Below are positions 2,734 through 29,508 of a stretch of 32,878 bases of DNA, one piece after another; the stretch's first letter is position 1, and each line of letters opens with the position of its first letter. Both the position numbers and the translations under genes were made by a program. The notes below the pieces were generated by a model. The model saw only the letters and a list, made by a program, of their open reading frames with translations. It searched no databases and had not been told where the DNA came from. This DNA comes from Acidimicrobiaceae bacterium (GTDB taxonomy: Bacteria > Actinomycetota > Acidimicrobiia > Acidimicrobiales > Ilumatobacteraceae), in NCBI GenBank assembly GCA_002698945.1, contig NZZV01000001.1:1-32878 (forward strand), read 5' to 3'.

Positions 2734-2778
2734 GTGGCGGGGGCAGGATTTGAACCTGCGACCTTCGGGTTATGAGAA
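2734..2778 (-). repeat. att-like direct repeat, left copy: 3' half of tRNA-Met(CAT)
   Basis: 45 bp GTGGCGGGGGCAGGATTTGAACCTGCGACCTTCGGGTTATGAGAA, identical to 29464-29508. The reverse complement has anticodon loop CTCATAA, T-arm GCAGGTTCAAATCCTGC and acceptor CCCCGCCA. No 5' half is present. Confidence 0.9.
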
Positions 2779-2896
2779 CCGAGCCTGAGGTCCGCTCACG
2801 TCTGCGCTCATTGGCATCAGTCCTGGTCAGACGGCCAGAACTGCTGATGTGCGCTTGGCTTCGTCCGCTCCCACCGGCGCCTGTAGGTGCCGGTCG

Positions 2897-2916
2897 CGTT
2901 GTACGTCCGTTGTACG
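2897..2916 (+). repeat. Paired CGTTGTACG direct repeats (11-bp period), possible recombinase arm site
   Basis: CGTTGTACG at 2897-2905 and 2908-2916; the GTTGTAC core also occurs in the inverted repeat at 29369-29395 near the other island end. Confidence 0.45.
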
Positions 2917-2929
2917 GGCTGGACCTTCG

Positions 2930-2945
2930 CCTCCTCTCAAGGAGG
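2930..2945 (-). terminator. Short hairpin downstream of hypE
   Basis: CCTCCT-CTCA-AGGAGG, 6-bp perfect stem, about 50 bp past the hypE stop. Confidence 0.35.
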
Positions 2946-2995
2946 GGCGGGTTCCGATGCCCCCTCGGCGACCGGATCCGCCGACGGCCGCGCCG

Positions 2996-4072
2996 TCAGC
3001 AGATCCGAGGGAGCTGTTCGCCGAGTGGGAGGTCGACGACTCGGCTGGCTCCGAGTCGAGTCCTCGCCACGACGACACCGGGATGATCGGCGACGACCCG
3101 GCCGATCACGCGGGCACCGCGACCATGCTCGTGATCGTGCATGGCGGCGACAACGGCGTCGACACCTTCAGGTGGGACGAATGCGACCAGTTTGCCCTCG
3201 TTGGCGACGTTCATCGGGTCGAGCCCGAGGAATGAGCAGGCGGCAGCGACCTCAGGCGGCACCGGGATCGCCGCCTCGTCGTACTCGACGCCCACGGCGG
3301 CCGACGAGGCGATCTCGCACAGGCTCGCCGCGACGCCGCCGCGGGTCGGGTCGCGCAACACGTGCAGGTCGCGGTGGGCGTCGAGCATGGCGCCGACGAG
3401 GCCGTGGAGCGGAGCGGAGTCCGACTCGATCTGCGTGCCGAACTCGAGACCCTCGCGTTGTGACATCACGGCGACGCCGTGCAACCCGATCGGGCCGGAG
3501 ACGACGAGCACGTCACCCGGCGTCGCCCGCGACGGCCGGATGTCGACCCCGTCGGGGACCACACCGACGCCGGCCGTGTTCACGTAGACCCCATCGGCCA
3601 GCCGGGCGTCGACGACCTTGGTGTCCCCCGTGACGATCGGCACCCCAGCCGCACGCGCGGCATCCCCCATCCGGTCGGCGATCCGGCCGAGTGTCGCCAG
3701 CTCCAGCCCCTCTTCGATGATGAACCCGCAGCTCAAGGCGATCGGCTGAGCGCCGCTCATCGACACGTCATTGATCGTGCCGTGGACAGCGAGCTCACCG
3801 ATGCTGCCGCCGGGGAAGAACAGCGGGCGGACGACGTACGAGTCGGTGGAGAACGCCAATCGGCCCGCACCGCCATCCAGGGCCAGGGTCGCCGCGTCGT
3901 GCAGCTCGCCGAGCGCAGCCCCCGATGTTGCGAAGGCGGGACGGAAGAGATGCTCGACGAGTTCACCCGACAGCCGGCCGCCGCCGCCGTGGCCGATCAC
4001 GACGCGGTCGTGGCCTCGCAGTGGGAGCGGACACGACCAGTTCTCGAAGTCGGGAGGGTCGGACTCAGCCAA
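2996..4072 (-). CDS. hypE: Hydrogenase expression/formation protein HypE
   Basis: [19 protein letters not shown]...[36 protein letters not shown]...DPTRGG... and C-terminal PRIC. Start probably TTG at 4072, overlapping the hypD stop. Confidence 0.95.
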
Positions 4073-5180
4073 CGCCGACCTCGACCGGCACCACGTCGAG
4101 ACGACGGTACTGGTAGTACGCCGCACAGGCGCCCTCGCTGGAGACCATCGTGGCCCCGAGCGGGGCGCGCGGGGTGCATTCCTTGCCGAACGCCTCGCAC
4201 TCGTGCGGCTTGATGAGTCCCTGCAGGACCTCGCCGCTGCGGCACAGCGACGACTCGGGGGCGTCGACGTCACTGACCCCGAACCGGAGCTCGGCGTCGA
4301 AGTCCGCGTATCGGTCGGAGAGGCGCCACCCGCTCGCCGGGATCTCGCCGATGCCGCGCCACTGCCGATCGCACACCTGGAACACGTCCTCGATCATCGC
4401 CTGGGCGGCGGCGTTGCCGGCCGAGGACACCACCCGTTCGTACGCGTTCTCGAGCCGCGCCTCGCCGGCCTCGAGCTGTGCCACGGCACGGCGTATCCCG
4501 TCGAGCACGTCGAGCGGCTCGAAGCCGGTGACCACGATCGGCACCTGGTAGGCGTCGACGAGCGGCCCGTACTGCCAGGTCCCCATCACCGAGCAGACGT
4601 GCCCGGCGGCGAGGAAGGCGTCGACCCGGCTCGTGGGCGAGCTGCAGAGAGCTTCGATCGCCGGCGGTACCAGGACGTGGCTGACGAGGACGGAGAAGTT
4701 CGTCAGACCACGCTGGTGGGCAAGGTGGACCGTCATCGCGTTGGGAGGCGCCGTCGTCTCGAACCCGATCGCGAAGAACACCACCTGCCGGTCGGGGTGC
4801 TCCTCCGCGAGACGCACCGCGTCGAGCGGCGAGTACACGACGCGGATGTCGCCGCCCTCGCTTCTGATCTGGAACAGGTCGTGCTGGCTGCCCGGGACGC
4901 GGAGCATGTCGCCGAACGAGCAGAAGATGACCTCGGGGAGAGCCGCGATCTCGAGTGCCTTGTCGATGACGCCGAGCGGGGTGACGCAGACCGGACATCC
5001 GGGGCCGTGGATCAACTCGATCGAGTCGGGCAGGAGCTGGTCGATGCCGTTGCGGATGATCGAGTGGGTCTGTCCGCCGCAGACCTCCATGATCGCCCAC
5101 TCCCGGGTGGCCAGCCGCTCGATCTCGTCGAACAGCCGTCGTGCCAGTTCGGGGTCGTTGAACTCGTCGAGAAACCTCAC
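4065..5180 (-). CDS. hypD: Hydrogenase formation protein HypD
   Basis: [20 protein letters not shown]...[15 protein letters not shown]...[11 protein letters not shown]...GFETTAPP...[14 protein letters not shown] start at 5180. Confidence 0.95.
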
Positions 5181-5473
5181 CGGACACCTCCTCTCGCGTC
5201 GGGGATCGGGCCACCGACGGTGCCCCCGGTCACGCCGAGCTCGTCGTCCAGCACGCCCAGCTCGCGGAACAACGCCAACGTCTCGAGTGCCGTGGCCTCG
5301 TCGACCTTGGAGATCGCGAAGCCGACGTGGACGATCGCGTAGTCGCCGACCTCGATATCGGGGAGGTATGCGAGGCAGATGTCCTTGCGGATGCCGTCGA
5401 AGTCGATCGTCGCCATCCGGGTGCCCCGCTCGTCGCGGGTCTCGACGATCTTGCCGGGTACGGCGAGACACAT
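5177..5473 (-). CDS. hypC: HypC/HupF-family hydrogenase maturation chaperone
   Basis: [11 protein letters not shown]... canonical HypC N-terminus. Confidence 0.95.
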
Positions 5474-5474
5474 G

Positions 5475-7820
5475 TCAATCGACCTCCTGTCGGTCGGGTT
5501 CGGGTTGTCGGTCGGGTTCGGATGAGTGCGAATCTACGTCGGCACAGTGGGCCGCGATGTACGCCTGTCCGAGCGCCAACCCGCCGTCGTTGCACGGAAC
5601 CTGTCGGTGCGTCAGCACGGTGAAGTCGGCGCCGCTGAGACGCTGGGTGGCCCGGTCGGTGAGCAACGCGTTCTGGAAAACGCCGCCGCTCAGGACGACG
5701 GTCTCGATCCCCGTCGCCTCTCTGGAACGGCATGCGAGCGTGTGGATGAGCTCGACGACGGCGAGGTGCACGCCGCGCGCGATCGCTTCGATGGCGACGC
5801 CGTCGCGCAGATCACGAACCGTTGCGGCCACGAGCTCGGCGACCGAGCACGCGGTACCGGCGGCGGCGAACTCGTAGCGGGGCGCGGCCGCGTCGGTGGC
5901 GCCCATCGCGGCGACCTCGAGATCGATCGCCGCCTGGGCCTCGAAGCTGATCCGGTGGCGGAGCCCGAGCAGCGAGGCGATCGCGTCGAAGAACCGCCCC
6001 ATGCTCGACGTCGGCACGCAGCCGAAGCCAGACTCGAGCTGCCGGGCCACTACGCCGAGCTCGACGGCGTCGACCTGCGCGACCGGCGGAAGGTCGCCGG
6101 CCCACTCGACGCCTGCGGCGTGGAGATGGGCGAGCGCGACGCGGCACGGGTTCTGGATCGACGCGTCGCCGCCCGGCAGCGGGACGTATGCGAGGTGAGC
6201 TGCACGCTCGAAACCGTTCGCGTCGGCGTGGAGCACCTCACCGCCCCAGATCGCGCCGTCGGTGCCGTAGCCGGTGCCATCGAACGCGACTCCGATCACG
6301 GGGCGGTCGGGGGCGAGCCGGTGCTCCGCCATCACAGCGGCGACGTGGGCGTGGTGGTGTTGCACCTCGACGATGCGGTCGGGGTGGTGCGTGCGGCCCC
6401 ACCTCGACGTCGCGTATCCGGGGTGCGCGTCGACGGTAACGACCTCGGGTTCGACGGCGTACATCGTCGTGAACGAAGAGACCGTCGCCTCGAACGCGCC
6501 CAACGTCGCCAGATGCTCCATGTCGCCGACGTGCTGGCTCACCCAGGCATGGTCGCGCGATGCCACGCAGCACGTGTTCTTCAGTTCGCCGCCGACCGCC
6601 AGTACCGAGCGCCGGCCCCCGTCGATCGGCACGGGTACCGGCGCGTAACCGCGCGCCCTGCGGACCGGGAGCAGCTCGCCGGCGACCACCCGCACGACCG
6701 AGTCGTCGCACGGCACGTGGATCGGTCGATCGTGGTCGAGCATCATGTCGCACAGGTGGCCGAGTCGGGGGTCGACCTCGTCGTCGCGGTGGACGATCGG
6801 CTCGCCGCTCAGGTTGCCGCTGGTCATCACCAACGGCGGGAGCCCCGCGTCGAACAGGAGGTGATGGACGGGCGTATACGGCAGCATCACACCGACGAGC
6901 GGATTTCCGGGAGCGACGAGTGCGCTCAACCCGTTGTCGGGGCGTGCCTGGAGCAGCACGACAGGGCGGGCGGGAGAGGTGAGCTGCCGCTCCTCCTCGG
7001 CGTCGATCTCCGCGAGCCGCCGAGCCACGACGAGGTCGGAGACCATCAGCGCGAACGGTTTGTCGGGTCGGTGCTTGCGATCGCGGAGCCGCCGGACCGC
7101 TCGGTCGCTGGTGGCATCGCAGGCGAGGTGGAAGCCGCCGACCCCCTTGATCGCTACCGTCGCACCGGCGAAGAGCGCGGCGACGACGGCCTCGATCGGA
7201 TCGTCGACCGGACCGAGGGCCGGATCGGCAGCCGCCGACGGTGTCCGCACGTGCAGCGTCGGACCGCAGTCGTGGCACGCGATCGGCTGAGCGTGGTACC
7301 GCCGGTTCGAGGGGTCGCGATACTCGGCCGCGCAGTCGTCGCACATCTCGAACCCGGCCATCGTGGTGGCCGGACGGTCGTAGGGCAGGTCGCGGATGAT
7401 GGTGAACCGGGGGCCGCAGTTGGTGCAGGTGATGAACGGGTGGCGATGGCGGCGATCGGACGGGTCGAACAGCTCGGCGACGCAGTCGTCGCAGACCGCC
7501 GTGTCGGGCGGGACCAGGGTGCGTGCACCCATCGCACTGCGGCTCTCGACGATGTGGAACCCGGTCGACGGCGCCCGACCACCGGGTTGCCGCTCGACGG
7601 CGTCGATCATCGCAAGCGGTGGGGCGTCGTCGCGTAGCCGTCGGGCGAACTCGTCGAGCCGGTCCGGCGTGCCGGCAACGTCGATGAACACGCGCGTCGA
7701 GTCGTTGCCGACCTCGCCGTCGAGGCCGAGCTCGGTGGCGAGACGATGGACGAACGGGCGGAAGCCGACGCCCTGAACGATGCCGGTCACCACGATCCGC
7801 TCGGCGACGCGCGTGCTCAT
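5475..7820 (-). CDS. hypF: Carbamoyltransferase HypF
   Basis: Acylphosphatase domain IVQGVGFRPFVHRLA, zinc-finger-like CDDCVAELFDP...CTNCGPRFTI...CHDCGPT, YrdC-like and Kae1-like regions. Start MSTRVAER at 7820. Confidence 0.95.
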   Translation of the reverse strand: MSTRVAERIVVTGIVQGVGFRPFVHRLATELGLDGEVGNDSTRVFIDVAGTPDRLDEFARRLRDDAPPLAMIDAVERQPGGRAPSTGFHIVESRSAMGARTLVPPDTAVCDDCVAELFDPSDRRHRHPFITCTNCGPRFTIIRDLPYDRPATTMAGFEMCDDCAAEYRDPSNRRYHAQPIACHDCGPTLHVRTPSAAADPALGPVDDPIEAVVAALFAGATVAIKGVGGFHLACDATSDRAVRRLRDRKHRPDKPFALMVSDLVVARRLAEIDAEEERQLTSPARPVVLLQARPDNGLSALVAPGNPLVGVMLPYTPVHHLLFDAGLPPLVMTSGNLSGEPIVHRDDEVDPRLGHLCDMMLDHDRPIHVPCDDSVVRVVAGELLPVRRARGYAPVPVPIDGGRRSVLAVGGELKNTCCVASRDHAWVSQHVGDMEHLATLGAFEATVSSFTTMYAVEPEVVTVDAHPGYATSRWGRTHHPDRIVEVQHHHAHVAAVMAEHRLAPDRPVIGVAFDGTGYGTDGAIWGGEVLHADANGFERAAHLAYVPLPGGDASIQNPCRVALAHLHAAGVEWAGDLPPVAQVDAVELGVVARQLESGFGCVPTSSMGRFFDAIASLLGLRHRISFEAQAAIDLEVAAMGATDAAAPRYEFAAAGTACSVAELVAATVRDLRDGVAIEAIARGVHLAVVELIHTLACRSREATGIETVVLSGGVFQNALLTDRATQRLSGADFTVLTHRQVPCNDGGLALGQAYIAAHCADVDSHSSEPDRQPEPDRQEVD

Positions 7821-9043
7821 CCGAGCTCCCAGATCATCACCCGGTTGTTGCCGGAGTCGGCGATCGCGAGCCGGCCGCGGTGGAGGCACAGACCGTACGG
7901 CCAGCAGAGGCTGTCGTCCCCGACGGCGTCCCACCGGTTCTCACCATTGGTGCCGAAGTCGGGCTGGCCGAGCACCCGATCGGCACCGACGGTCCCGTCG
8001 GCCGGCGCGTGATCCCACACCAGCACCCGGTTGTTGGCGGTGTCGGCGACGGCCATCACCTCGCTCGAGGGATCGATCTCGATCGCGTACGGGAACCGCA
8101 GCGACGACGCCGTCTGGGCTTGGTACGGGAACTCACCGGCGGTCACGAAGTCGGGTTGACCGAACACGAGGTCGGCCCCGACGTCACCGCCGGGCATCGG
8201 CTCCCACCCCAGCAGGCGATGGTTGCCGGCGTCGGCGACCATGAACCGGGCATCGGTGCCGGCCACGTCGTGCGGCCACCGGAAGCTGGCCGGTCCGAGC
8301 TCGCCACGGTTCTCGTCCCTGCTGTGGCCGTCGGCTTGCCCGAGCACCACCGCAGGAGCCTGGCCCGGCTCGGGGATGCCGTCCCAGGCGAGCATCCGGC
8401 GGTTGCCGGTGTCGGCGACCCAACAGCGACCGGCGACCATAGCGACGCCGAACGGCCAGTAGAACCCAGTGGGACCGCACGGACCACCACGGTTCTCGTC
8501 GACCGCCGCCGGATCGGGCTGACCGATCACGTGGTCGGGGGCGAGGTCGCTCGTCTCGGGAACCGAGTCCCAGACGAGGAGTCGATGGTTCCAAGCGTCG
8601 GCGACGACGAGCCGGTCGTCGTGGACGATCACCCCGGTCGGCAGCCGCATGCCCCGCTCGGGCCCACGGCCGGCCGCCTGCGCTCCCTCGCTCGTCATGT
8701 CGGGTTGACCGAGGACCACGTCGGCGTCGCCGTGCGACGTGAGCCCGTCGACGTCGTGCCAGATCAGGACCCGATGGTTGCCGGTATCACAGACGACGAC
8801 GCGTCGGTCGTCCATCCAGACGCCCCGCGGGGCGTAGAGCTGCGACGGCGTCGGATCGGCGTCGGGCAGCATCAGCCCTCCGAGCGCGGGGGCCCCGAGC
8901 CACACGGCGGGGTGGGCTCCGCCGGTCAGGTCGACGTTGCCGGACGGACCGGGAGCACTCCAGCCCGTCGACGTGCGCGCGTGCAACGGGATCGTGACCG
9001 TCGCAGCGCGGCCGTCAGGCGCCGGCGGCACGGATCCAGACAT
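7817..9043 (-). CDS. NHL-repeat (beta-propeller) protein, hydrogenase-associated
   Basis: Repeated VADTGNRRMLAWD / VADAGNHRLLGWE / VADTANNRVLVWD / IADSGNNRVMIWE with interspersed VLGQPD motifs. Start MSGSVPP at 9043. Confidence 0.85.
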   Translation of the reverse strand: MSGSVPPAPDGRAATVTIPLHARTSTGWSAPGPSGNVDLTGGAHPAVWLGAPALGGLMLPDADPTPSQLYAPRGVWMDDRRVVVCDTGNHRVLIWHDVDGLTSHGDADVVLGQPDMTSEGAQAAGRGPERGMRLPTGVIVHDDRLVVADAWNHRLLVWDSVPETSDLAPDHVIGQPDPAAVDENRGGPCGPTGFYWPFGVAMVAGRCWVADTGNRRMLAWDGIPEPGQAPAVVLGQADGHSRDENRGELGPASFRWPHDVAGTDARFMVADAGNHRLLGWEPMPGGDVGADLVFGQPDFVTAGEFPYQAQTASSLRFPYAIEIDPSSEVMAVADTANNRVLVWDHAPADGTVGADRVLGQPDFGTNGENRWDAVGDDSLCWPYGLCLHRGRLAIADSGNNRVMIWELG

Positions 9044-9920
9044 GACCGTCCTCGATGCGGGTGGGCACCTGGGTGAGCTGGGCACCGGGCGCAGACAGGC
9101 ACTCCCCGGTCGACGCGTCGAAGCGGAACCCGTGCCAGGGGCACGTGAGCACCCCTTCGTCGAGCATTCCACCGTCGAGCGTCATGCCCTGGTGCACGCA
9201 CGCGTTGCGGAACACGGTGAGAGACTGCTCGACGTTGGTGACGACGAAGCTGTGCGGTTCGCCGTCGTCGGGCGTCACGTCGATGCGGCGCATCTCGCCG
9301 GGCGGGATCTCGTCGATCGACATGCCTCGCACCCAGCCGGTGTCGCGCTTGCGTCCGATCTGGTCGAGCGGGATGAACGCGACGGTCGGTTGGTCGTCGA
9401 GCTGTTCGACCCGCTCGATCTCCTCGACGTGACCGATCAGCGCCTCCTCGACCCCTTCCCGTAGCGTCGCCGCCGACATCGAGCAACCGTTGCAGCTGCC
9501 GTGCAGCCGCACGTAGGCGGTGCCGCCCTCGACGCGGACCAGCTCGACGTCGCCGCCGTGCGATTGCAGGTACGGGCGTACCGCGTCGAGCGCCCGTCGT
9601 GCCCGGGTGGCCGGGTCGGCCCGAATGATGCCGTGGAGGCCGAGGACCGCCCGCACGTTAGGGTCGTCAACGAGATCGAACAGGAGCTCCTTACCCCGCG
9701 GGTCGTCGCGCAGGGTCCGGACGATGTGGACGAGGGCCGGACGGTGGAACGCCTCGATCGCCATGCGAAGGTCGGTGGCCGCGCTCCTCGCGGGCTCATC
9801 GAGCCCGGCGACCGCCCCGGCGGCAGCGTCGACAGCGGTCGCCAACGCCTCGAACTCGGCGTCCGGTTCGTCGGGGCCGACCGGTTCACGGGCTTCCCGC
9901 GTGGTCTCGACGGCGGTCAT
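9015..9920 (-). CDS. NifU C-terminal-like domain fused to a Rieske [2Fe-2S] domain; putative hydrogenase electron-transfer protein
   Basis: NifU-like LQSHGGDVELVRVEGGTAYVRLHGSCNGCSMSAATL followed by Rieske CVHQGMTLDGG...CPWHGFRFD. Start MTAVETT at 9920. Confidence 0.88.
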   Translation of the reverse strand: MTAVETTREAREPVGPDEPDAEFEALATAVDAAAGAVAGLDEPARSAATDLRMAIEAFHRPALVHIVRTLRDDPRGKELLFDLVDDPNVRAVLGLHGIIRADPATRARRALDAVRPYLQSHGGDVELVRVEGGTAYVRLHGSCNGCSMSAATLREGVEEALIGHVEEIERVEQLDDQPTVAFIPLDQIGRKRDTGWVRGMSIDEIPPGEMRRIDVTPDDGEPHSFVVTNVEQSLTVFRNACVHQGMTLDGGMLDEGVLTCPWHGFRFDASTGECLSAPGAQLTQVPTRIEDGHVWIRAAGA

Positions 9921-11185
9921 GCCGAGTCCTGCCGGATGAGGCTCTCGTGCTTGGCGACCTCGTCGAGCACCGAACGCACCGCCATGACCGCGTCGTGCTC
10001 CTCGAACTCCTCGAAGATCGCCCGTGCTTCGTGCAGCCGGGCCTTGGCATCGTCGAACGCACCGAGGTGGGCGAGCGCATTCCCCTGATTGGCCAGCACG
10101 CGGGCGCACCCCTGCGGGTCGGCATCCCGGTCGCGATGGGCCAGGACCTCCTCGTACAGCTCGACCGCCTCGGCGATGTTCTCGGCCTGGTGCTTGGACG
10201 GCATGTACACCAATGCGTTGGCGAGGTTGAGCTGGGTGCTCGACCACCGGCCGGGGTGGGTCTCGGGCGTGAAATAGGCGAGCGCCTCGCGCATCGACTG
10301 CACAGCGACGCCGACTCGCAGCTGATCGGACGCCTCGTGCATGGGTATCGTCAGGTAGGCGAGGCCGAGGTTCGCATTGGCGATCGCGAACGTCTCGGGG
10401 GCGGTGTCGGCGGTCACCAACGCCATCGCCTGGTGGTAGTGGTCGATGGCCTTCTGCATGAGCCGCGGCGCGGCTTCGGACATCTCTTGGAACATCGCGC
10501 CCGCGGCGACGTGCAACTCGGCGCGGCTGACGTGGAGGTCGGTCCCGCTCAGCGCGTCGATCGCGGCCTGGAACGTGACCGAGGCGCGCTGCACCCCTCC
10601 CTCGTCCAGTTGTGCGTTCGCGAGCTGGCCCATCAGCTGGCCGGCGAGCGCCGCCGACACAGGTCGGGCGGCCTGGGCACCCTCCTCGAGGTGTTCGATC
10701 GCCGCCGCCGAGTCGCCGCGTTCGAACGCCGCCGTGGCATGCGCAGCGTGGACCATCGCCGCCACCTCCCCGTCAAAGGCGTCGGATGCCGGCGGTGACG
10801 GACGCAGGCCGACCGCGAACCCGAGCGTCTCGACGAGTCCGTGCAACGCCGGATCGCCGGTGACCACTGGGTCGGTGACCAACACCTGGAGCTCGGCCGG
10901 GTCGGGCGCGAGCACGAAGCGATTGATCCGCACGACCGGATCGGCGGGGTCGAGGCGATCGAGTTCGGCGAGTGCAGCATCGGCGTCGCCACCGAGTGCG
11001 CGCTCGTAGTACGCGAGGCCGTCCGGGAAGGCGGACGGCAGCTTTCCGGCGGCCAACGACTCGCGCACCCCGTCATGACCGTCGCCATCGACGATCAGGA
11101 GGAACCCGGCGGGCAGTGGGAACACGCCGAGTGGCTGTGGCCGGCTCAGCAGTGTCCGCGGATCGGTGGTGGAGACATCAACCAT
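9917..11185 (-). CDS. Tetratricopeptide-repeat protein, hydrogenase-associated
   Basis: MVDVSTTDPRTLL...; helical repeats such as ALAYFTPETHPGRWSSTQLNLANALVYMP and ARVLANQGNALAHLGAFDDAKARLHEARAIF. Confidence 0.75.
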   Translation of the reverse strand: MVDVSTTDPRTLLSRPQPLGVFPLPAGFLLIVDGDGHDGVRESLAAGKLPSAFPDGLAYYERALGGDADAALAELDRLDPADPVVRINRFVLAPDPAELQVLVTDPVVTGDPALHGLVETLGFAVGLRPSPPASDAFDGEVAAMVHAAHATAAFERGDSAAAIEHLEEGAQAARPVSAALAGQLMGQLANAQLDEGGVQRASVTFQAAIDALSGTDLHVSRAELHVAAGAMFQEMSEAAPRLMQKAIDHYHQAMALVTADTAPETFAIANANLGLAYLTIPMHEASDQLRVGVAVQSMREALAYFTPETHPGRWSSTQLNLANALVYMPSKHQAENIAEAVELYEEVLAHRDRDADPQGCARVLANQGNALAHLGAFDDAKARLHEARAIFEEFEEHDAVMAVRSVLDEVAKHESLIRQDSA

Positions 11186-11408
11186 TCAGTGGCCCTTCGA
11201 TGTTGCGGTCGGCGCTTTGACGAACCCAGCCGGCTGCGATCCGGGCATGACGCTCGGTCGGGTAGTCGTTGATCCGGCGACGGACGACACCGTCGGGGAA
11301 CACGACCACGATCTCGACGATCCAGCGGCCGCGATCCTCTGACACCAAGGTGTCGACCGCGACCGCCGGCTCGCCGGGGGTCGGGTGGGGATCACCGGAG
11401 GTCGACAC
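11178..11408 (-). CDS. Small hypothetical protein (76 aa) in hydrogenase operon
   Basis: Overlaps neighbouring genes at both ends in an apparently co-transcribed operon; MSTSGDPHPTPGEPAVAVDTLVSEDRGRWIVEIVVVFPDGVVRRRINDYPTERHARIAAGWV. Confidence 0.65.
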   Translation of the reverse strand: MSTSGDPHPTPGEPAVAVDTLVSEDRGRWIVEIVVVFPDGVVRRRINDYPTERHARIAAGWVRQSADRNIEGPLNG

Positions 11409-11715
11409 GGAGTGCTCCGCTGGCGTGGTCCCAGATCGCGGCCCGCTCGCCGACCGGCGAAACGCCGGGCGGGAGCGCTTCCCAGATCAGGGTCGACCGG
11501 TCGCCCTCCTGGTTGCGCTGCTTGAGCAGCAGACCGCCACCCTCGGTACTGACCAGGGGCATCAGCCACAGCTCGCCACCGCGGGCGATCGCGACGAGCG
11601 CGTCCGCCGGGAAGTACGAGCGCGCCACCGCGGCGGACACCCGTAACGAGCCGGCCGCGGTGAACTCGACCGTCGTCGCGGTTCGATCCGCCCGTTGGTC
11701 GGCACCGTGGCTCAC
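11392..11715 (-). CDS. Hypothetical protein (107 aa), hydrogenase-associated
   Basis: MSHGADQRADRTATTVEFTAAGSLRVSAAVARSYFPADALVAIARGGELWLMPL...; overlaps flanking operon genes. Confidence 0.7.
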   Translation of the reverse strand: MSHGADQRADRTATTVEFTAAGSLRVSAAVARSYFPADALVAIARGGELWLMPLVSTEGGGLLLKQRNQEGDRSTLIWEALPPGVSPVGERAAIWDHASGALRVDLR

Positions 11716-12248
11716 CGGTCATCCCACATGCTCCGTATCATCGCGCCGACTCGGTGCATGGCGGTCGCGATGTCGTCGGTGAGCGGCGCACCCGGCTCGG
11801 TCGACGCCGCCTCGACCAGGTACACGACGATGTCGTCCGGATAGTCGTCGCCGAGCAGCCAGCGACCGAACGAGAGCGCGTGGTCCCACCGGAACTGATG
11901 GGTGTGGATGCCATCGAGCGCCGGCAGGTCCTCCAACTCCTCGCCGGGCACGCGGTAGATCGTGCCGGGCGCGGCACCGGTCGCCGCGGCGTCGACGATG
12001 ACCACTCGGGCGGCGCCGCGCATCTTGAACGCGACGTCCATCCCCGCGGTCCCACCGTCGACCAGCGTGACGTCGTCGGGGACGCCCTGCTCCCAGAGGT
12101 GCCGGACGAGCGTGGGGCCCACCGCGTCGTCACCGCGAAGCAGGTTGCCGCAACCGACGACGACGGTCTGCCCGTCGCGATGGGCGCTGAGCGACTCATC
12201 GAGCGCGATCCGGCGCGCTTCGTCGATGGAGAGCCCTGGTCGCGCCAC
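11712..12248 (-). CDS. [NiFe]-hydrogenase maturation endopeptidase (HyaD/HupD family)
   Basis: VVGCGNLLRGDDAVGPTLVRHLW...VDGGTAGMDVAF...VVIVDAAATG; GTG start at 12248. Confidence 0.88.
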   Translation of the reverse strand: MARPGLSIDEARRIALDESLSAHRDGQTVVVGCGNLLRGDDAVGPTLVRHLWEQGVPDDVTLVDGGTAGMDVAFKMRGAARVVIVDAAATGAAPGTIYRVPGEELEDLPALDGIHTHQFRWDHALSFGRWLLGDDYPDDIVVYLVEAASTEPGAPLTDDIATAMHRVGAMIRSMWDDR

Positions 12249-12252
12249 CCCG

Positions 12253-13860: not shown

Positions 13861-13875
13861 GATGGTTGGAGTCCG

Positions 13876-17623: not shown

Positions 17624-17660
17624 CGGTCGCACGATAGGCCGTCGCACGGCCGGACGAAAG

Positions 17661-17710
17661 TCATCCTTTCGATCAACCAAGAATTGTTGTTCTTTACTTT
17701 CCACGGTCGA
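17661..17710. promoter_or_regulatory. Candidate CbbR operator/promoter in the cbbR-fbp intergenic region
   Basis: AT-rich patch in a GC-rich context: TCATCCTTTCGATCAACCAAGAATTGTTGTTCTTTACTTTCC, with CAAC-N8-GTTG inverted half-sites at 17674-17689. Confidence 0.45.
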
Positions 17711-17776
17711 CCCCATCATGATCACACGACCGCAGCCGGGTCGAACCCGAACCGGCACGACGACGAAGGACCGGCG

Positions 17777-18820: not shown

Positions 18821-18823
18821 CCG

Positions 18824-19699
18824 ATGTCGACCCGCCATCCGATCATCTCGGTCACCGGCTCGTCGGGAGCCGGCACGACCACCGTCAAGGAGACGTTCGA
18901 CCAGATCTTCCGACGCGAGCACATCCGGGTCGCGACGATCGAGGGCGACGCGTTCCACCGATTCGACCGTGCCGCGATGCACGCCGAACTCGAGCGACGG
19001 ACCGCTGCCGGCGACCTCGAGTTCAGCCACTTCGGTGCCGACGCCAACCTGCTCGACGAGCTCGAGCAGACGTTCGCGTCCTACGCGCGGTGCGGCACGG
19101 GACGAACCCGTCACTACGTCCACGACACCACCGAGGCCGAACGGTACGGCGTCGATCCCGGTTGCTTCACCGACTGGGAGGACCTGGAGCCCGACACCGA
19201 CCTGCTCTTCTACGAGGGCCTGCACGGCGCCGTCGTCGACGACCGACGCAACATCGCCCGCCACGGCGACCTGAAGATCGGGGTCGTGCCGGTGATCAAT
19301 CTCGAGTGGATCCAGAAGATCCATCGCGACTCGGACGCTCGTGGCCACACGACCGACGCGATCACGAACACGATCCTTCGGCGTCTGCCCGACTACGTCC
19401 GCTACATCTGCCCGCAGTTCACGGAGACCGACGTGAACTTCCAGCGCGTCCCGGTCGTCGACACGTCCAACCCGTTCATCGCCCGGCACATCCCGACCGC
19501 CGACGAGTCGGTCGTCGTGATCCGGTTCCGCGACCCGCACGGCATCGACTTCCCGTACCTGCTGTCGATGATCGACCGGAGCTGGATGAGCCGGGCCAAC
19601 TCGATCGTGATCCCCGGCGGCAAGCTCGACCTGGCGATGCAGCTGATCCTCACACCGCTGATCCGGCGATTGATCGAGCGGAAGCGGCACGCCCGATGA
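18824..19699 (+). CDS. prkB: Phosphoribulokinase (PrkB-type)
   Basis: IISVTGSSGAGTTTVKETF...IEGDAFHRFDR...FYEGLHGAVVDD...VVPVINLEWIQKIHRD. Confidence 0.95.
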   Translation: MSTRHPIISVTGSSGAGTTTVKETFDQIFRREHIRVATIEGDAFHRFDRAAMHAELERRTAAGDLEFSHFGADANLLDELEQTFASYARCGTGRTRHYVHDTTEAERYGVDPGCFTDWEDLEPDTDLLFYEGLHGAVVDDRRNIARHGDLKIGVVPVINLEWIQKIHRDSDARGHTTDAITNTILRRLPDYVRYICPQFTETDVNFQRVPVVDTSNPFIARHIPTADESVVVIRFRDPHGIDFPYLLSMIDRSWMSRANSIVIPGGKLDLAMQLILTPLIRRLIERKRHAR

Positions 19700-21764
19700 G
19701 CACGGCCACGTCCGGCGCGAGCACCGCGGAGCACGTCGACCCGATCGACGTCGCTGCGACACAGCGGCTGGCGACCGCCGTGCGGATGCTCGCCGCCGAC
19801 ATGGTCGACGCCGCCGACTCCGGCCACCCCGGGCTCCCGCTCGGCGCCGCTGACGTCGCGACCGTGCTGTTCACCCGACACCTCGTGTTCGACGCCGCCG
19901 ACCCGGCGTGGCCGGACCGCGACCGGTTCGTCCTGTCGGCCGGGCACGGGTCGGCCCTGCTCTACGCACTCGGGTACCTCTGCGGGGTCGCCGGGGTCCG
20001 GCTCGATCACCTCCGCCGGTTCCGCCGACTCGGCAGCCCCTGCGCCGGCCACCCCGAGCACGGTGAGTTCCCGATCGCCGACACCACGACGGGACCGCTC
20101 GGACAGGGCATCGCCAACGCGGTCGGGATGGCGATCGCCGAGGAGCGACTGCGACACGACTTCGGCAACGACCTGTGCGACCACCACACCTGGGTCCTCG
20201 CCGGCGACGGATGCCTGATGGAAGGCGTCACCGCCGAGGCGATCGCGCTCGCCGGCCACCTACGTCTGCGACGCCTCGTGCTCCTGTGGGACGACAACAG
20301 GATCACGATCGACGGACCCACGGCTCAATCGACCACCGAGGACCAGCTGGCACGCTTCGCGGCCGCAGGCTGGACGGTCGCGTCCGTCGACGGTCACGAC
20401 CCACTCGAGATCGACGCCGCACTGACGGCCGCCCGCGAGGCCACCCGCCCGACGTTGGTGGCGTGCCGAACCACGATCGGCAAAGGGGCCCCGACCAAGG
20501 CGGGCATCGCCGCCGTGCACGGGTCGCCGCTCGGTGCGGCCGAACGAGCCGCGATGGCAGACCGGCTCGATTGGGGGCATCCCCCGTTCGAGATCCCAGC
20601 AGACCTCCACGCCGAGTGGCGCGCGGCCGGCACCCGGTCGCGCGGTCGGCGCGAGCACTGGACGCAGAACATCGCATCGCATCCGCTGGGCCCAGCGCTG
20701 TCCAGCCGGCTTGCCGACCCGACCCCGTCCGGCACCGTCCGGCTCGCGACGCTGCGGACGGACCTGCTCGCCACCCTGCCCACGGTCGCGACTCGGGCGA
20801 TCAACGCCACGGTGATCGACGCCCTCGACGCTGACACGGCGCGATCCGGCCGAGACGACGGCAGCGGCTCGCTGCTCGGTGGCTCGGCCGACCTGGCCGG
20901 ATCGAACGGCTTCGGGTTCGCGCGGCGTCGTCCGTTCACTGCTGCCGACCGCGGCGGCAATTTCGTCAACTACGGCATCCGAGAACACGCGATGGCGGCG
21001 GCGACGAACGGCATCGCGCTCCACGGTGGCTTCCGGCCCTACGCCGGGACCTTCCTGGCGTTCAGCGACTACTCCCGGCCGGCGATCCGGCTGGCCGCGC
21101 TGATGCGTCTCGGGGTCGTCCACGTCTTCACCCACGACTCGATCGGCGTTGGCGAGGACGGCCCCACCCACCAGCCCGTCGAGCACGTCTGCGCGCTGCG
21201 GGCCATCCCCGGGCTCGTCGTCATCCGGCCCGCCGACGCGGTCGAGACCGTGGAGGCGTGGCAGTTCGCGCTGTCGAGCGACGACCGCCCGACCGCGCTC
21301 GTGCTCACCCGACAAGCGGTCGCACCACTCGATCGGCACGAACGGGCGCCCGACGGCGTCGCTGCCGGCGGCTACGTTGTGGCCGAGCCGTCCGAGGCTT
21401 CCGTGACCCTGCTGGCCTCGGGATCCGAGGTGGGCATCGCGGTCGGCGCCGCCCAGATCCTCGCCTCCGACGGCATCGCCGCGCGGATCGTCTCGATGCC
21501 GTCGATGGAACTCTTCGCCGACAGACCGACCGCCGAGCGCGACGCCGTACTCGGCGAGCTCCCTCGGATCGCGGTCGAGGCGACGATCGGCCAGTCGTGG
21601 CAGCGCTGGCTGCGGCCCGGTGACACGTTCGTCGGGATGAGCGGCTTCGGCGCCTCGGCGCCCGGGCCCGACCTGTTCGAGCACTTCGGCATCACGCCCA
21701 CCGCCGTCGCCGAGGCTGGACGCGCTGCTCTCCACCCGCCGGTCACACGACAAGGAGCCCACTG

Positions 21765-21765
<1 letters not shown>
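19696..21765 (+). CDS. tkt: Transketolase
   Basis: [28 protein letters not shown]...[19 protein letters not shown]...[13 protein letters not shown]...[20 protein letters not shown]...[18 protein letters not shown]. Confidence 0.96.
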
Positions 21766-24357
<2,592 letters not shown>

Positions 24358-24389
24358 CAGGCAACACCACCGAACGAGAGGACTTCACG

Positions 24390-24809
24390 ATGCGACTCAC
24401 CCAGGGCATGTTCAGCTTCCTGCCGGACCTCACCGACGACGAGATCGCGGCCCAGGTCGACTACTTCATCCGCAACGGCTGGGCGGTGTCGATCGAACAC
24501 ACCGACGATCCCCACCCGCGCAACACCTACTGGGAGATGTGGGGGCAGCCGATGTTCGACCTCGGCAGCACACGGCCATTCATGACCGCCCTCGCCGAGT
24601 GCCGGGAGGCGATGCAGAGTGCCTACATCCGGGTGACGGCGTTCGACGCGACGAAGGGGTGGGAGAGCCCGCGCGCCTCGTTCATCGCCCACCGGCCGAC
24701 GGCCGAGGACGGGTTCGCGCTCGCACGCACGAGCGTGCAGGGCCGGACCCAGCGCTACGGCATCCGCGCCGACGTCACCGACCGGCCGACCGCAGGCCGC
24801 TACCGATGA
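24390..24809 (+). CDS. cbbS: RuBisCO small subunit, red-type
   Basis: [58 protein letters not shown] with the C-terminal extension typical of red-type small subunits. Confidence 0.96.
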
Positions 24810-25744
24810 ACGCGCCGACCCCCGTCGACGAGGCCGGCCCCGACCGCATCGCCGGTCCGGACGTCGTCGATCTCGGCGCCGAGCGGCGGGCGACGGGGAT
24901 CGACGACTACCTCGCCGGGCTCGACGCCCGACTGGTCGGCCTGACGCCGGTCAAGCAGCGGATCGACGAGATCGCCGCGCTGCTGCTCGTCGACCGCGTC
25001 CGTACACGGGTCGGGCTGGCGACCGGTCCGCCGACCCTGCACATGAGCTTCACCGGCAACCCGGGCACCGGCAAGACGACGGTGGCGTCGGCGATGGGCG
25101 AGATCCTGCATCGGCTCGGCTACCTCCGGTCCGCTCGGGTGGTGTCGGTCACACGCGACGACCTCGTCGGCGAGTACATCGGCCACACCGCACCCAAGAC
25201 GAAGGACGTGCTCCAGCGCGCCGCGGGTGGCGTGCTCTTCATCGACGAGGCGTACTACCTGTATCGGCCGGAGAACGAACGCGACTATGGCCAAGAGGCG
25301 ATCGAAATCCTGCTGCAGGTGATGGAGGAGCAGCGGGACGACCTCGTGGTGATCCTCGCCGGCTACGCCGACCGCATGGAGCGGTTCTTCGGCTCCAACC
25401 CCGGGTTCCGCAGCCGAGTCGCTCACCACATCGACTTTCCCGACTTCGACGACGGCGAACTCGTCCGCATCGGTGAGATGTTGTTGGCCGACCAGCAGTA
25501 CCGGCTCTCCGACGACGCCCGCGCCACGCTGTTCGACTACGTCGGGCGTCGTCGTTCGCAGCCTCACTTCGCCAACGCCCGATCGGTCCGGAACGCGTTG
25601 GACCGTGCCCGGCTGCGCCAGGCCAATCGTCACGTCACGGCCGGCACCGTGGCGGTCGACGACCTGAGCGTGATCGAGGCCGACGACTTGGCGGTGAGTC
25701 GCGTGTTCAACGACCGACCCGACGACGCCCGGGAGTCGCGATGA
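24806..25744 (+). CDS. cbbX: AAA+ RuBisCO activase CbbX
   Basis: [95 protein letters not shown]. Confidence 0.96.
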
Positions 25745-26427
25745 CCGCCCCGACGGTGATCGCGCCGTCGATCCTTGCCTGCGACTTCGGAAGGCTCGCA
25801 GCCGAGGTCGCCGAGGTCGCGGAGGGTGGAGCCGAGTGGATCCACGTCGATGTGATGGACGGTCACTTCGTGCCGAATCTGACGATCGGGCCGGCCGTGG
25901 TCGCCGCGGTCCGCGCTGCGACCGACCGAGTGGTCGACGTGCACCTCATGATCGAGCCCGTCGACGCGTACATCGAGGCGTTCGCCGGGGCGGGCGCCGA
26001 CGTCATCACGGTGCACGCCGAGGCGACGCGGCACCTCGACCGCACCCTCGCCGCGGTCCGCGATCTCGGCGTGCAGGCCGGTGTCGCGCTCAACCCGGCG
26101 ACCCCGGCCGCGACGGTGCGCCACGTCCTCGACCGCGTCGACCTCGTGCTGGCGATGACCGTCAACCCGGGCTTCGGCGGCCAACGGTACCTCGAGAGCG
26201 TGGAGCCCAAGCTGGTCGAACTGGCCGAGATGGTCGGTGATCGGCCGATCCGGCTGGAGGTCGACGGTGGGATCGACGCCACGACGGCACCGAGGGCCGC
26301 CGCGGCCGGGGCCGACACGTTCGTCGCCGGCTCCGCTGTGTTCGGCGCGAACGTCAGATCGTCGGCGATCGCCGAACTTCGTGGGGCGGCCACACAGGCC
26401 CGCCTCACGACGTCGGTGGAGACCTGA
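25741..26427 (+). CDS. rpe: Ribulose-phosphate 3-epimerase
   Basis: [16 protein letters not shown]...[22 protein letters not shown]...[14 protein letters not shown]...[12 protein letters not shown]. Confidence 0.96.
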
Positions 26428-26429
26428 TC

Positions 26430-27890
26430 ATGACCCGACAGCGTTGGCGGGCCCGGCGGGTGCTCCATCCGGTGACCCTCCGCTGTCTTTCCGACTACGT
26501 CGGCATCGGCGGCGGTGCCGGCCTCGAACTCACCCGACGGATCAGTGCGGACGACCTCATCGATCGGGTGGTCGCCAGCGGCTTGCGCGGCCGCGGCGGT
26601 GCCGGGTTCCCCGTCGGGCGCAAGTGGCGAACAGTGGCAGACCAGCATCGCCACAGCGGAATCGCCCCTGTGGTCGTGGTCAACGGTGCCGAAGGCGAGC
26701 CCGGCACGTTCAAGGACAGATCGATCATCCGCAACAATCCCTACGCCGTCATCGAGGGTGCCCTGATCGCGGGCGTCGCGGTCGGTGCCTCCGACGTCGT
26801 CATCGCGACGAAGCGGAGCTTCGAGCACGAGGGTCGGCGGCTCGCCGACGCGATCGCCGAGATCCGAGCCGCCGACTGGTCGTCGATCCCGATCCATCTC
26901 TTCCACGGACCCGACGAGTACCTGTACGGCGAGGAGAGCGCACTCCTCGAATGCCTCGACGGTCGCGGTCCCTTTCCACGCGTCTCGCCGACCTACCGCA
27001 TCGGTCTGCTCGAAACACGCGACTGGCGTGGAGTCGTCGGACCGGCGCTCGTGAACAACGTCGAGTCGCTGGCAAACGTCCCGAAGATCGTCGCTCGTGG
27101 GCCCGAATGGTTCCGCCGGATCGGCACCGCCGACTCGCCGGGCAGTTCGGTCGTAACCGTCACTGGCGACCGGGTCCGCCACGGTGTCGCCGAGGTCCGT
27201 CTGGGCACGCCACTGCGGACGGTCCTGCGGGCGATCGGCGGTGACATGCGGTCGCAACCACCGATCAAGGCGGTGCTGTCCGGTGTCGCCAACCCGCTGC
27301 TCCTCCCACCCGGGTTGGCGGCGCCGATCAGCTACGAGGGGCTGCGGGCGGCAGGTGGTGGGCTCGGTTCCGGCGGGTTCATCGTGTTCGACGCGTCGAC
27401 CGACATGGCCGCCGTCGCGGCCGGCGTGGCGCGCTTCCTGGCGATCGAGTCGTGCGGTCAGTGCTCGCCGTGCAAGCTCGACGGGTTGCTGCTCGCCGCC
27501 GTGCTCGCCCGGCTGTGTCGCAACGAGAGTCGGCGAGGCGATCTCGATCTGATCAGCCGGCGGTCGCGGACGGTCGCCTACGGCGCCCGGTGCTACCTCG
27601 GGATCCAGCACGAGACCGTGCTGTGCTCGATCCTCGAGCACTTCTGGGCCGAGTTCGAGGCGCACGCGAGCCGCGTCGCTCCGGCGGTCGATCCGGTCGC
27701 GATCACCGAGCTCGTCGACATCCGCGACGGACGTGCCGTGCGCGACGACCGACATCATCGGAAGCAACCCGACTGGTCGTACGGCCTCGCGCACTCGGGC
27801 AAGACCCCCGCGGAGCGACGCAGCGAGCTGGCGAGTTCGTGCCGGGTCGAGCTGAGCTCCCGCCCCGCACGGTTGGCGCTCGATGGATAG
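26430..27890 (+). CDS. Solitary NuoF/HoxF-like NADH-binding flavoprotein with [4Fe-4S] motif
   Basis: GLRGRGGAGFPVGRKW (nucleotide binding), VVNGAEGEPGTFKDRSIIRNNPYAVIEGALIAG, LYGEESALLE, NNVESLANVP, ESCGQCSPCK...CYLG. No NuoE/HoxE or NuoG/HoxU partner in the window. Confidence 0.88.
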   Translation: MTRQRWRARRVLHPVTLRCLSDYVGIGGGAGLELTRRISADDLIDRVVASGLRGRGGAGFPVGRKWRTVADQHRHSGIAPVVVVNGAEGEPGTFKDRSIIRNNPYAVIEGALIAGVAVGASDVVIATKRSFEHEGRRLADAIAEIRAADWSSIPIHLFHGPDEYLYGEESALLECLDGRGPFPRVSPTYRIGLLETRDWRGVVGPALVNNVESLANVPKIVARGPEWFRRIGTADSPGSSVVTVTGDRVRHGVAEVRLGTPLRTVLRAIGGDMRSQPPIKAVLSGVANPLLLPPGLAAPISYEGLRAAGGGLGSGGFIVFDASTDMAAVAAGVARFLAIESCGQCSPCKLDGLLLAAVLARLCRNESRRGDLDLISRRSRTVAYGARCYLGIQHETVLCSILEHFWAEFEAHASRVAPAVDPVAITELVDIRDGRAVRDDRHHRKQPDWSYGLAHSGKTPAERRSELASSCRVELSSRPARLALDG

Positions 27891-27924
27891 ACGCTGCGCC
27901 GACGACGGCCTACCGTGAGCCCCG

Positions 27925-28275
27925 ATGCACGAGTTCTCGCTATGCCGGGCGATCGCCGCGACCGTCGAGTCGCACGCCGACGGGCGCCCGGTGTCGGTCG
28001 TGCGGATCACCGTCGGCCACTTCCGGCAGGTCGTCCCTGACTCGATGGTGCACTGCTGGGAGCTACAGGTACACGGCACGGAGCTGGATGGTTCACGCCT
28101 CGTTATCGACGAAGTCCCAGCGGTGATCGAATGCGCCGGCTGCGGGGCCAGGACGACGCTCGAGTTGCCGGTCCATCGCTGCGGGCAGTGCGACAGCCTA
28201 TCGACGCGCCTGATCAGCGGCGAGGAGTTCCTGATCGACTCGATCGACATTCACACCACTCCCGAGGAGGTCTAG
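27925..28275 (+). CDS. hypA: Hydrogenase nickel-insertion protein HypA
   Basis: MHEFSLCRAIAATVESHA...; zinc site CAGCGARTTLELPVHRCGQCDS. Confidence 0.92.
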   Translation: MHEFSLCRAIAATVESHADGRPVSVVRITVGHFRQVVPDSMVHCWELQVHGTELDGSRLVIDEVPAVIECAGCGARTTLELPVHRCGQCDSLSTRLISGEEFLIDSIDIHTTPEEV

Positions 28276-29052
28276 ATGGGACGATTCCACCGCCACGCCG
28301 ACGGCACCGTGCACGACCACGAGCACGAGCACGAGCACGAGCACGACCACGAGCATCGCGACGTCGGTGACCACAGCGCCTACGAGACCGGGCCGCAACG
28401 GGTCGCGATCCTCGAAACCATCCTCGGCGAGAACGACCGGATCGCCGACATGAACCGCCGCGACCTCGTCTCCGCTTGTGTGCGATCGATCAACCTGATG
28501 TCATCACCTGGCGCGGGCAAGACGACGCTATTGCGTCGTGTGATCCCAGCGCTCGCCGAGCGCGGCACACGAGTGGGCGTGCTCGAAGGCGACATCGCAA
28601 CGTCGATCGACGCCGACCGACTGTCCGACGTCGGCGCGGCCGCGGTCGCACTGGTCAACACCAACGCCGGGTTCGGCGGCGAGTGCCACCTCGACGCGGT
28701 GATGGTGCGATCCGGCCTCGACCGACTTCCCCTGGACCAACTCGACCTGCTCGTGATCGAGAACGTCGGCAACCTCGTGTGCCCCGCCGAGTTCGACGTC
28801 GGCCAGGACCGACGCGCAATGGTCTACGCGATCACGGAGGGCGAGGAGAAGCCCCTCAAGTACCCTGTGATGTTCCACGCGGTCGACGTCGTCTTCGTCA
28901 ACAAGATCGACCTCCTCCCGCACCTCGATTTCGATCTCGCCGCGTTCCACTCGAACCTCCGAGCGGTCAACCCGGCGGCCGACATCATCGAGGTGAGCGC
29001 GACCACCGGCGACGGTCTCGAACGAGCGGTCGAGTGGTTCCAGAGTTCCTAG
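28276..29052 (+). CDS. hypB: Hydrogenase nickel-incorporation GTPase HypB with His-rich N-terminus
   Basis: HDHEHEHEHEHDHEH leader; NLMSSPGAGKTTLLRRVI, EGDIATSIDADRL, VIENVGNLVCPAEFDVG, VNKIDLLP. Confidence 0.95.
   Translation: MGRFHRHADGTVHDHEHEHEHEHDHEHRDVGDHSAYETGPQRVAILETILGENDRIADMNRRDLVSACVRSINLMSSPGAGKTTLLRRVIPALAERGTRVGVLEGDIATSIDADRLSDVGAAAVALVNTNAGFGGECHLDAVMVRSGLDRLPLDQLDLLVIENVGNLVCPAEFDVGQDRRAMVYAITEGEEKPLKYPVMFHAVDVVFVNKIDLLPHLDFDLAAFHSNLRAVNPAADIIEVSATTGDGLERAVEWFQSS
28315..28356 (+). repeat. Coding hexanucleotide tandem repeat (GAGCAC/GACCAC) encoding the HypB His-rich tail
   Basis: gaccac-(gagcac)x4-gaccac-gagcat, seven consecutive hexamers. Confidence 0.85.
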
Positions 29053-29368
29053 ACGGACCAGACCGCGGCGCGGTGCTCGTTGCTCCGTGGGGTCCAGCCC
29101 GACCGTGTCGGGACTTGCCCTCCTGGTCGAAGGACTGGGACCGAGGCAGACCGCAGAGCCGCAAGGGGTCCAAGCAGAGTCGCATCTCGCGAACCGCGTC
29201 GAGTTCTGCGCCCACCCGGGACCTCGGGTTGTGAGACCCGAAGGTCATCCGTGCTCTGGCGGACGACGCCGCAGACTCGACGCGTCCCATGCGCGAAGCC
29301 GCAGGTCAGGGGGTTGGCCACCTGCGACGGCCCGTCGCCTACGGCCATCGAGCCCGGTCTCGGCGGAG

Positions 29369-29395
29369 GCTGTACAACAGTTCGTGTTGTACAGC
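29369..29395. repeat. Perfect inverted repeat GCTGTACAAC-N7-GTTGTACAGC near the right island end
   Basis: 10-bp arms 29369-29378 and 29386-29395; shares GTTGTAC with the left-end repeats at 2897-2916. Confidence 0.75.
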
Positions 29396-29409
29396 GGCTC
29401 GAAATGGCA

Positions 29410-29447
29410 AGAGGCCCCTCCCGAGATTCGGCTCGGAAAGGGCCTCT
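29410..29447 (-). terminator. Hairpin next to the tRNA-Met 3' fragment, copy 2
   Basis: AGAGGCCC...GGGCCTCT outer stem with inner CCGAG/CTCGG pairing. Confidence 0.55.
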
Positions 29448-29463
29448 GACCTGGTGTTACTTG

Positions 29464-29508
29464 GTGGCGGGGGCAGGATTTGAACCTGCGACCTTCGGGT
29501 TATGAGAA
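29464..29508 (-). repeat. att-like direct repeat, right copy: 3' half of tRNA-Met(CAT)
   Basis: 45 bp identical to 2734-2778; flanking bases cannot complete an anticodon stem, so not a whole tRNA. Confidence 0.9.

Follow-up and report, generated by a model that had tools for sequence, protein, structure and literature searches.

Can the energy and carbon halves of hydrogen-driven autotrophy be carried by a single DNA element? This question is raised by contig C23 (32,878 bp; the whole stretch analysed, hereafter the window) of an Ilumatobacteraceae metagenome-assembled genome (MAG), G000 (226 contigs, 82% complete). In this contig, genes for a [NiFe]-hydrogenase and for the Calvin-Benson-Bassham (CBB) cycle lie between two repeats of a tRNA-Met 3′ part. 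The window was compared with 222 Ilumatobacteraceae genomes, including a genus subset of ten. The data indicate that segment 2734-29506, here called the island, is probably one non-autonomous integrative element, similar to a cis-mobilizable element (CIME), within a tandem array that comprises six or more elements and stands at a single initiator tRNA-Met gene.

The repeats are attachment cores derived from an initiator tRNA gene

An earlier note on this DNA had described perfect 45-bp repeats of a tRNA-Met 3′ part. These are real (2734-2778 and 29464-29508, 26,730 bp apart), and both correspond to the 3′ part of the sole full tRNA-Met gene found at a core in G000 (C34:11955-12029). Bases 44 and 45 vary among copies, being AA at both window copies, CC in the tRNA gene and CA or CG at the remaining cores. 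Therefore, the true core is 43 bp long and the AA common to the two window copies is a coincidence. The tRNA-Met on C34 shows a GGG/CCC anticodon stem, which we take to be the mark of an initiator tRNA.

2734-2776, minus strand: left attachment (att) core, 43 bp, initiator tRNA-Met 3′ part (repeat and genome core search)
29464-29506, minus strand: right att core, 43 bp (repeat and genome core search)

With up to three mismatches allowed, five cores were found in G000, two on C23 and one each on C168, C34 and C101. The tRNA is intact at one of the five (C34) and fragmentary at the other four; no complete tRNA was detected in the window by ARAGORN. As neither window copy is a whole tRNA gene, the window is an interior part of a longer array. 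The possibility that the repeat is scattered for unrelated reasons, named in the earlier note as fatal to its proposal, was tested: all five copies in G000 are att cores of elements.

The island has the complete ends of a recurrent element family

Four conserved features were located between the two cores.

2899-2915, plus strand: arm pair TTGTAC-N5-TTGTAC of the left (P) end, +123/+134 from the core end (same spacing in five genomes)
29236-29246, minus strand: conserved ACCCGAAGGTC, part of the core in inverted form, at 228 bp from the right core (common to five TTGTAC P′ ends)
29371-29393, unstranded: arm palindrome TGTACAACAGTTCGTGTTGTACA of the right (P′) end, -93 from the core (five good matches in the 222 genomes, all 93-95 bp from a core)
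29410-29447, unstranded: terminator-like hairpin AGAGGCCC...GGGCCTCT adjoining the core (conserved in TTGTAC P′ ends)

At the left end, the TTGTAC direct repeats stand at exactly +123 and +134 in five of five ends, with diverged sequence between. Chance would yield 0.01 TTGTAC-N5-TTGTAC pairs in all 743 kb examined; six were observed, of which five adjoin a core and the sixth belongs to a remnant that has lost its core. At the right end, a TGTACAAC palindrome, with full form TGTACAACAG(Y)TCGTGTTGTACA and one mismatch in two of the five genomes, was found at -93 to -95 in all five and is followed by the conserved hairpin. No good match to it occurs away from a core in the 222 family genomes. 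The 11-bp inverted partial core lies at -228 to -230 inside each of the five TTGTAC right ends (window, G009, G006, G188 and G003); one end from a different arm family has it at -210, and none was found within 600 bp of the remaining cores examined.

In four other Ilumatobacteraceae genomes, one of them the closed chromosome G009, ends of this geometry go with unrelated cargo. A palindrome scan of the wider order returned matches confined to Ilumatobacteraceae, plus one unrelated palindrome in G313, and viral contigs contained neither TTGTAC ends nor a core-plus-P junction. Overall, segment 2734-29506 forms a unit of its own, and both of its ends are complete and of the kind that site-specific integrating elements have.

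The island lies inside an array of elements

Both sides of the island are occupied by parts of other elements.

1-2733, unstranded: element A (neighbour), right (P′) end, TGGTACAT arm family, with a DUF6518 gene at 2-616 (near-identical to C34 beside the full tRNA)
2642-2660, plus strand: arm repeat TGGTACATATTTGGTACAT of element A, -92 from the core (genome repeat search)
29507-32878, unstranded: element C (neighbour), left (P) end, TGGTACAT arm at 29617-29635, TOTE primase-helicase from 30704 (arm and domain match)

Elements A and C are both of the TGGTACAT arm family. The arm repeat TGGTACATATTTGGTACAT has five copies in G000 (up to three mismatches), each adjoining a core; arm repeats of the CCGTTAGA type were found on C168 and of the GGTAGA type on C101. 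We infer that the array at the single initiator tRNA-Met gene of G000 comprises at least six elements, namely three TGGTACAT elements, one CCGTTAGA element, one GGTAGA element and the island. The same core in G000 also serves integrase-bearing elements with arms other than TTGTAC. Several relatives hold multiple core copies, and in G001 and G008 the full tRNA site is single-copy and has no recognised arms. In the closed chromosome of G009, from the same genus, the tandem order is tRNA, CCGTTAGA-armed element with both ends, core, TTGTAC-armed element with both ends, core. This order shows that cores are element borders. The third core of G009 carries one substitution and one insertion.

Could the island be a native chromosomal segment caught between tRNA fragments of other elements? 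That both flanking neighbours belong to another arm family would suit such an origin. However, the island's own ends match element ends of four other genomes at fixed arm distances, which refutes this explanation in the main, and no core was found near the hydrogenase (huc) loci of relatives. We regard it as extremely unlikely.

An assembly or binning artefact, uniting unrelated elements at the 43-bp repeat, could be suspected because the source is a MAG and several other MAG contigs break at the core. Against this, TTGTAC ends were found only in Ilumatobacteraceae, so that C23 belongs to this family, both island ends are of matching type, and the closed genome G009 has the same architecture. 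An artefact is thus very unlikely.

Among elements with one common core (G000 C34, C101 and C168; G002, G003, G009 and G051), the integrase clade was observed to track the arm-repeat sequence. Integrases of CCGTTAGA-armed elements (C168, G009, G003 and G002) are 75-83% alike, those of TGGTACAT-armed elements (C34 and G002) 82% alike, and the GGTAGA-arm pair 54% alike. This pairing suggests a readable integrase-arm code.

The island and its family lack mobility genes

Phage_integrase matches number zero on C23, compared to 19 elsewhere in G000, and no recombinase family was found in the scanned island ORFs. Pfam scans recognised no relaxase, type IV secretion system or phage structural gene between the window cores. 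The site and the repeats are typical of an integrative and conjugative element (ICE), an integrative and mobilizable element (IME) or a prophage, as would be expected of an autonomous element with its own integration genes. Yet the absence of the genes just listed refutes a self-encoded tyrosine integrase, and an autonomous element is hardly credible here.

The complete TTGTAC element of G009 carries a two-component system, a MacB-type permease, an alpha/beta hydrolase and an IS110 transposase. No integrase was found in this element or in the TTGTAC contigs of G188 and G006. Since TTGTAC members, the island included, have no recognisable integrase, the family looks non-autonomous. No gene common to all integrase-less elements was found. 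The island has attL and attR with matched arms and lacks integration and conjugation genes, as a CIME does. As to an origin by decay of an ICE or IME, the integrase is absent in every TTGTAC member examined, and no ancestor was identified.

A fossil island must also be considered: after entry as a full element, loss of the integrase would have left it fixed and immobile in the chromosome. The island indeed has no integrase, and decay is seen elsewhere in arrays, with a core-less TTGTAC P end on G188 C92 and a truncated integrase and the mutated third core in G009. However, the cores and arm sets of the island are all intact and at standard spacing. Moreover, the missing integrase is common to all TTGTAC members examined, a poor fit to independent recent decay. 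We hold the fossil reading to be a substantial possibility, though clearly short of even. Overall, the earlier proposal of one mobile unit stands in that the unit is discrete and att-bounded, has ends that recur with unrelated cargo in four genomes and carries CBB genes that are rare in the family; it must be amended in that the island lacks an integrase gene and can only be presumed mobile.

The hydrogenase is of the Huc type and probably resident

The hydrogenase genes and their partners occupy both flanks of the cargo.

2996-4273 (ORF limits), minus strand: hypE (AIRS domains)
4065-5471 (ORF limits), minus strand: hypD (domain at residues 109-456)
5177-5533 (ORF limits), minus strand: hypC (domain match)
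5475-7934 (ORF limits), minus strand: hypF (domain match)
7817-9172, minus strand: NHL-repeat protein of the huc cluster (domain; syntenic in relatives)
9015-10247 (ORF limits), minus strand: NifU and Rieske iron-sulphur protein, HucE-like (same huc-cluster place on a M. intracellulare plasmid)
9917-11185, minus strand: TPR-like protein of the huc cluster (below the Pfam cut-off; synteny in relatives)
11186-11722, minus strand: hypothetical protein of the huc cluster (no Pfam match; in two Acidimicrobiia huc loci)
11712-12398 (ORF limits), minus strand: hydrogenase maturation protease (domain match)
12253-13860, minus strand: hucL, group 2a large subunit (7UTD/7UUS match, motifs)
13876-14847, minus strand: hucS, small subunit (domain match)
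14882-15409, minus strand: hucM (DUF1641), membrane-associated Huc subunit (1.3e-20 to 7UUS_Q)
15587-16660, plus strand: AraC-family regulator (conserved neighbour of hucM)
27925-28275, plus strand: hypA (domain match)
28276-29052, plus strand: hypB (domain match)

The large subunit matched Huc of M. smegmatis (7UTD/7UUS) with an E-value of about 1e-302, as compared to 2.5e-39 for the group 1h enzyme 5AA5. Judged by sequence, the island hydrogenase is a group 2a Huc [NiFe]-hydrogenase. The Hhy (group 1h) identity was rejected on the same values, and the gene that the earlier note called hhyL is renamed hucL. The motifs RICGIC and DSCLVC are present in the hucL product, HucM and the NifU/Rieske partner are both encoded in the huc cluster, and the maturation set is complete as hypABCDEF.

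Within the family, hucL was found in 7 of 222 genomes, four of them among the ten of the genus. The huc locus of G002 lies on a 68-kb contig without a core. Because hucL of the island groups with same-genus hucL genes, one of them on this contig, the hydrogenase genes are probably a resident set that the unit captured, rather than an import from a distant source.

The CBB operon is proteobacteria-like and embedded in the huc locus

The CBB genes are located between the AraC-family regulator gene and hypA.

16706-18196 (ORF limits), minus strand: cbbR, LysR-type regulator (match at residues 192-488)
17081-18820 (ORF limits), plus strand: fructose-1,6-bisphosphatase (domains from residue 244)
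18824-19699, plus strand: phosphoribulokinase (domain match)
19090-21765 (ORF limits), plus strand: transketolase (domains from residue 225)
21765-22877, plus strand: class II fructose-bisphosphate aldolase (domain match)
22888-24357, plus strand: cbbL, red-type RuBisCO large subunit, form IC clade (similarity and tree)
23850-24809 (ORF limits), plus strand: cbbS, small subunit (domain at residues 185-283)
24257-25744 (ORF limits), plus strand: cbbX, RuBisCO activase (AAA domains; 67% identical to Phyllobacterium cbbX)
25741-26427, plus strand: ribulose-phosphate 3-epimerase (domain match)
26430-27890, plus strand: NuoF/HoxF-like NADH-binding flavoprotein (domain match)

The operon is complete, and its gene order equals that of a Phyllobacterium plasmid. 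The product of cbbL scored 866 bits against 1BXN and about 640 against green forms, showing that it is of the red type; cbbX is present. Identity to the best alphaproteobacterial plasmid copies of cbbL is 80-84%. In the tree, cbbL falls in a 100/100 clade with plasmid sequences of Rhizobiales, Afipia and Nitrobacter, its sister being that of G256 of the Ilumatobacteraceae. Form IE was rejected, as Mycolicibacterium cbbL lies outside this clade. The labels form IC for the window clade and form IE for the mycobacterial enzyme follow general usage. The cbbL gene occurs in 4 of the 222 family genomes.

In several related Acidimicrobiia, the huc loci run hypBA-AraC-hucM-hucS-hucL onward, with no cbb genes. 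In the window, the cbb block is inserted between AraC and hypAB. The foreign part of the cargo is the RuBisCO, with its proteobacteria-like sequence. The gene content of the earlier note holds, and is extended by the fructose-1,6-bisphosphatase (17081-18820) and NifU/Rieske (9015-10247) genes that it left unnamed. It had also invoked an actinobacterial high-affinity hydrogenase with a red-type RuBisCO; the enzymes found are Huc and a red RuBisCO of the proteobacteria-like form IC, not of the actinobacterial form that is usually cited for atmospheric chemosynthesis. Its idea that H2-driven autotrophy may have been acquired as one mobile unit is to be changed for the hydrogenase, which is probably resident.

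The NuoF/HoxF-like flavoprotein gene (26430-27890) closes the cbb operon directly before hypA. The cbbL genes nearest to that of the window (G256 C74, L233-L234; G076 C80, L156) have hyp genes and another [NiFe]-hydrogenase nearby, and no att cores. These two loci indicate that CBB genes were coupled with hydrogenases repeatedly.

Proposed movement and history of the island

A tyrosine integrase acting in trans would insert and excise the island at the tRNA 3′ half. Alternatively, an integrase acting on the outer TGGTACAT ends of A and C might move A-B-C as a composite. As for the cargo, a genus-typical huc/hyp locus may have gained a proteobacteria-like form-IC cbb operon between AraC and hypAB; the huc-cbb block would then, or otherwise, have come between TTGTAC ends, and we leave these events unordered. 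Huc is predicted to pass electrons from low-concentration H2 to the respiratory quinone pool while the cbb operon would fix CO2, so that a recipient could gain facultative H2-driven mixotrophy or autotrophy.

A wider proposal, which we make tentatively and with somewhat less than even confidence, is that TTGTAC elements form an integrase-less island family of the Ilumatobacteraceae. Its members would have in common only their end modules (inverted half-core, palindrome, terminator and core at one end, the spaced TTGTAC pair at the other), would accept arbitrary cargo of up to 27 kb and would be moved in trans by a dedicated, hypothetical recombinase. The initiator tRNA gene would then be the site where the whole H2-oxidation and CO2-fixation module is exchanged, as one cassette.

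Several points weigh against a mobile CIME-like island. No integrase was found for which TTGTAC specificity is demonstrated or predicted. Neither an excised circle nor an empty site in the same species was observed, nor was any transfer; the mobility of the island is presumed. Clustering of the island hucL with same-genus copies (support 88) means that vertical inheritance may account for part of the cargo. The GC content of the island (0.692) is not distinctive, and that of the island and array parts is uninformative. Finally, the source is an incomplete MAG in which the 43-bp repeat could misjoin neighbouring elements; this bears on the identity of the neighbours, and less on the matched ends of the island.

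Comparison with known systems

The closest mechanistic relatives of the island are the CIMEs of accretion arrays, as defined in PMC5704250, and the ssrA islands of Dehalococcoides (PMC3146451). Like the island, CIMEs have att sites at both ends and no integration or transfer genes, and share their site, in tandem, with elements that bear an integrase. Here, in contrast, the integrase-less state spans an end family in five genomes, an origin by decay is hypothetical and the cargo is a metabolic module. The Dehalococcoides islands, which carry vcrABC, are also in tandem at a single essential RNA gene, with direct repeats and key respiratory cargo, and some members have no integration genes. They differ from the present case by serine instead of tyrosine recombinases, by tmRNA instead of initiator tRNA and by a cargo other than H2 oxidation and CO2 fixation. 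Tycheposons, which are defined by a family-specific recombinase and replication genes, were considered purely as an analogue.

Gene sets for H2 and CO2 use on mobile DNA are already known (PMC2864759, PMC9587121), and the means of spreading the trait that the earlier note calls notable has precedents. In Cupriavidus metallidurans, H2-oxidation and CO2-fixation genes are on the chromosomal mobile islands CMGI-2 and CMGI-3 (PMC2864759). These are IS (insertion sequence)-associated members of the Tn4371 family that divide the gene sets between them, CMGI-3 alone being 97 kb long, whereas here one 27-kb unit without transfer genes is found. Plasmids pHG1 and pHG201 (PMC9587121) carry CBB and hydrogenase genes on transferable DNA, but are large and encode other hydrogenase classes; Afipia pHCG3 (cbbL record), likewise a large plasmid, carries CBB genes. 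The 437-kb mobilizable plasmid of Mycobacterium intracellulare AH16 (NZ_CP012886.2; L248/L249) resembles the island in having a Huc-hyp cluster, AraC, hypA and hypB beside phosphoribulokinase, fructose-1,6-bisphosphatase and aldolase genes. It differs in being a plasmid, in its nuo operon and in that the stretches read around huc contain no cbbL. Compared to M. smegmatis Huc (7UTD/7UUS), to which the large subunit and HucM are alike by sequence, the island has an embedded cbb operon.

In Acidimicrobiia, the distribution of CBB genes is sparse and patchy, and several horizontal transfers have been proposed (PMC11697166). No described vehicle for such transfer into this class was found in the literature searched, and a search for tandem elements at initiator tRNA genes in actinobacteria gave no direct match. 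Three things are new here: one compact unit bounded by att sites, an array at the initiator tRNA in Acidimicrobiia, and a TTGTAC family without integrases. The island is a concrete candidate vehicle with mapped ends, holding both halves of H2-driven autotrophy, and the gain of this trait in a single recombination event becomes testable. The analysis also exposes the initiator tRNA as an array hotspot, what is apparently an integrase-arm code, and a family of elements that lack an integrase.

Further observations on the arrays

On G188 C92, P′ and P ends flank one core. A circular form was rejected since the contig ends have no common 25-mer; two tandem elements or remnants are indicated. On the same contig (L193, 5490-5840), a TTGTAC P end without a core abuts GGTAGA-family end sequence and an apparent integrase N-terminus, indicating array decay through deletion. 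In G043 C185 (L198), 15.6 kb between two cores contain TGTTCG-type repeats and no recognisable integrase, possibly representing a second integrase-less end family. Contigs from several MAGs (L152, L195, L196 and L198) stop at the 43-bp core, and arrays are hidden because this repeat is a systematic assembly breakpoint. Defence-like genes were observed in array neighbours: element C, next to the island, has the TOTE primase-helicase (window 30704-32878), and the CCGTTAGA element has the R, S and M genes of a type I restriction-modification system (L012, 954-7763).

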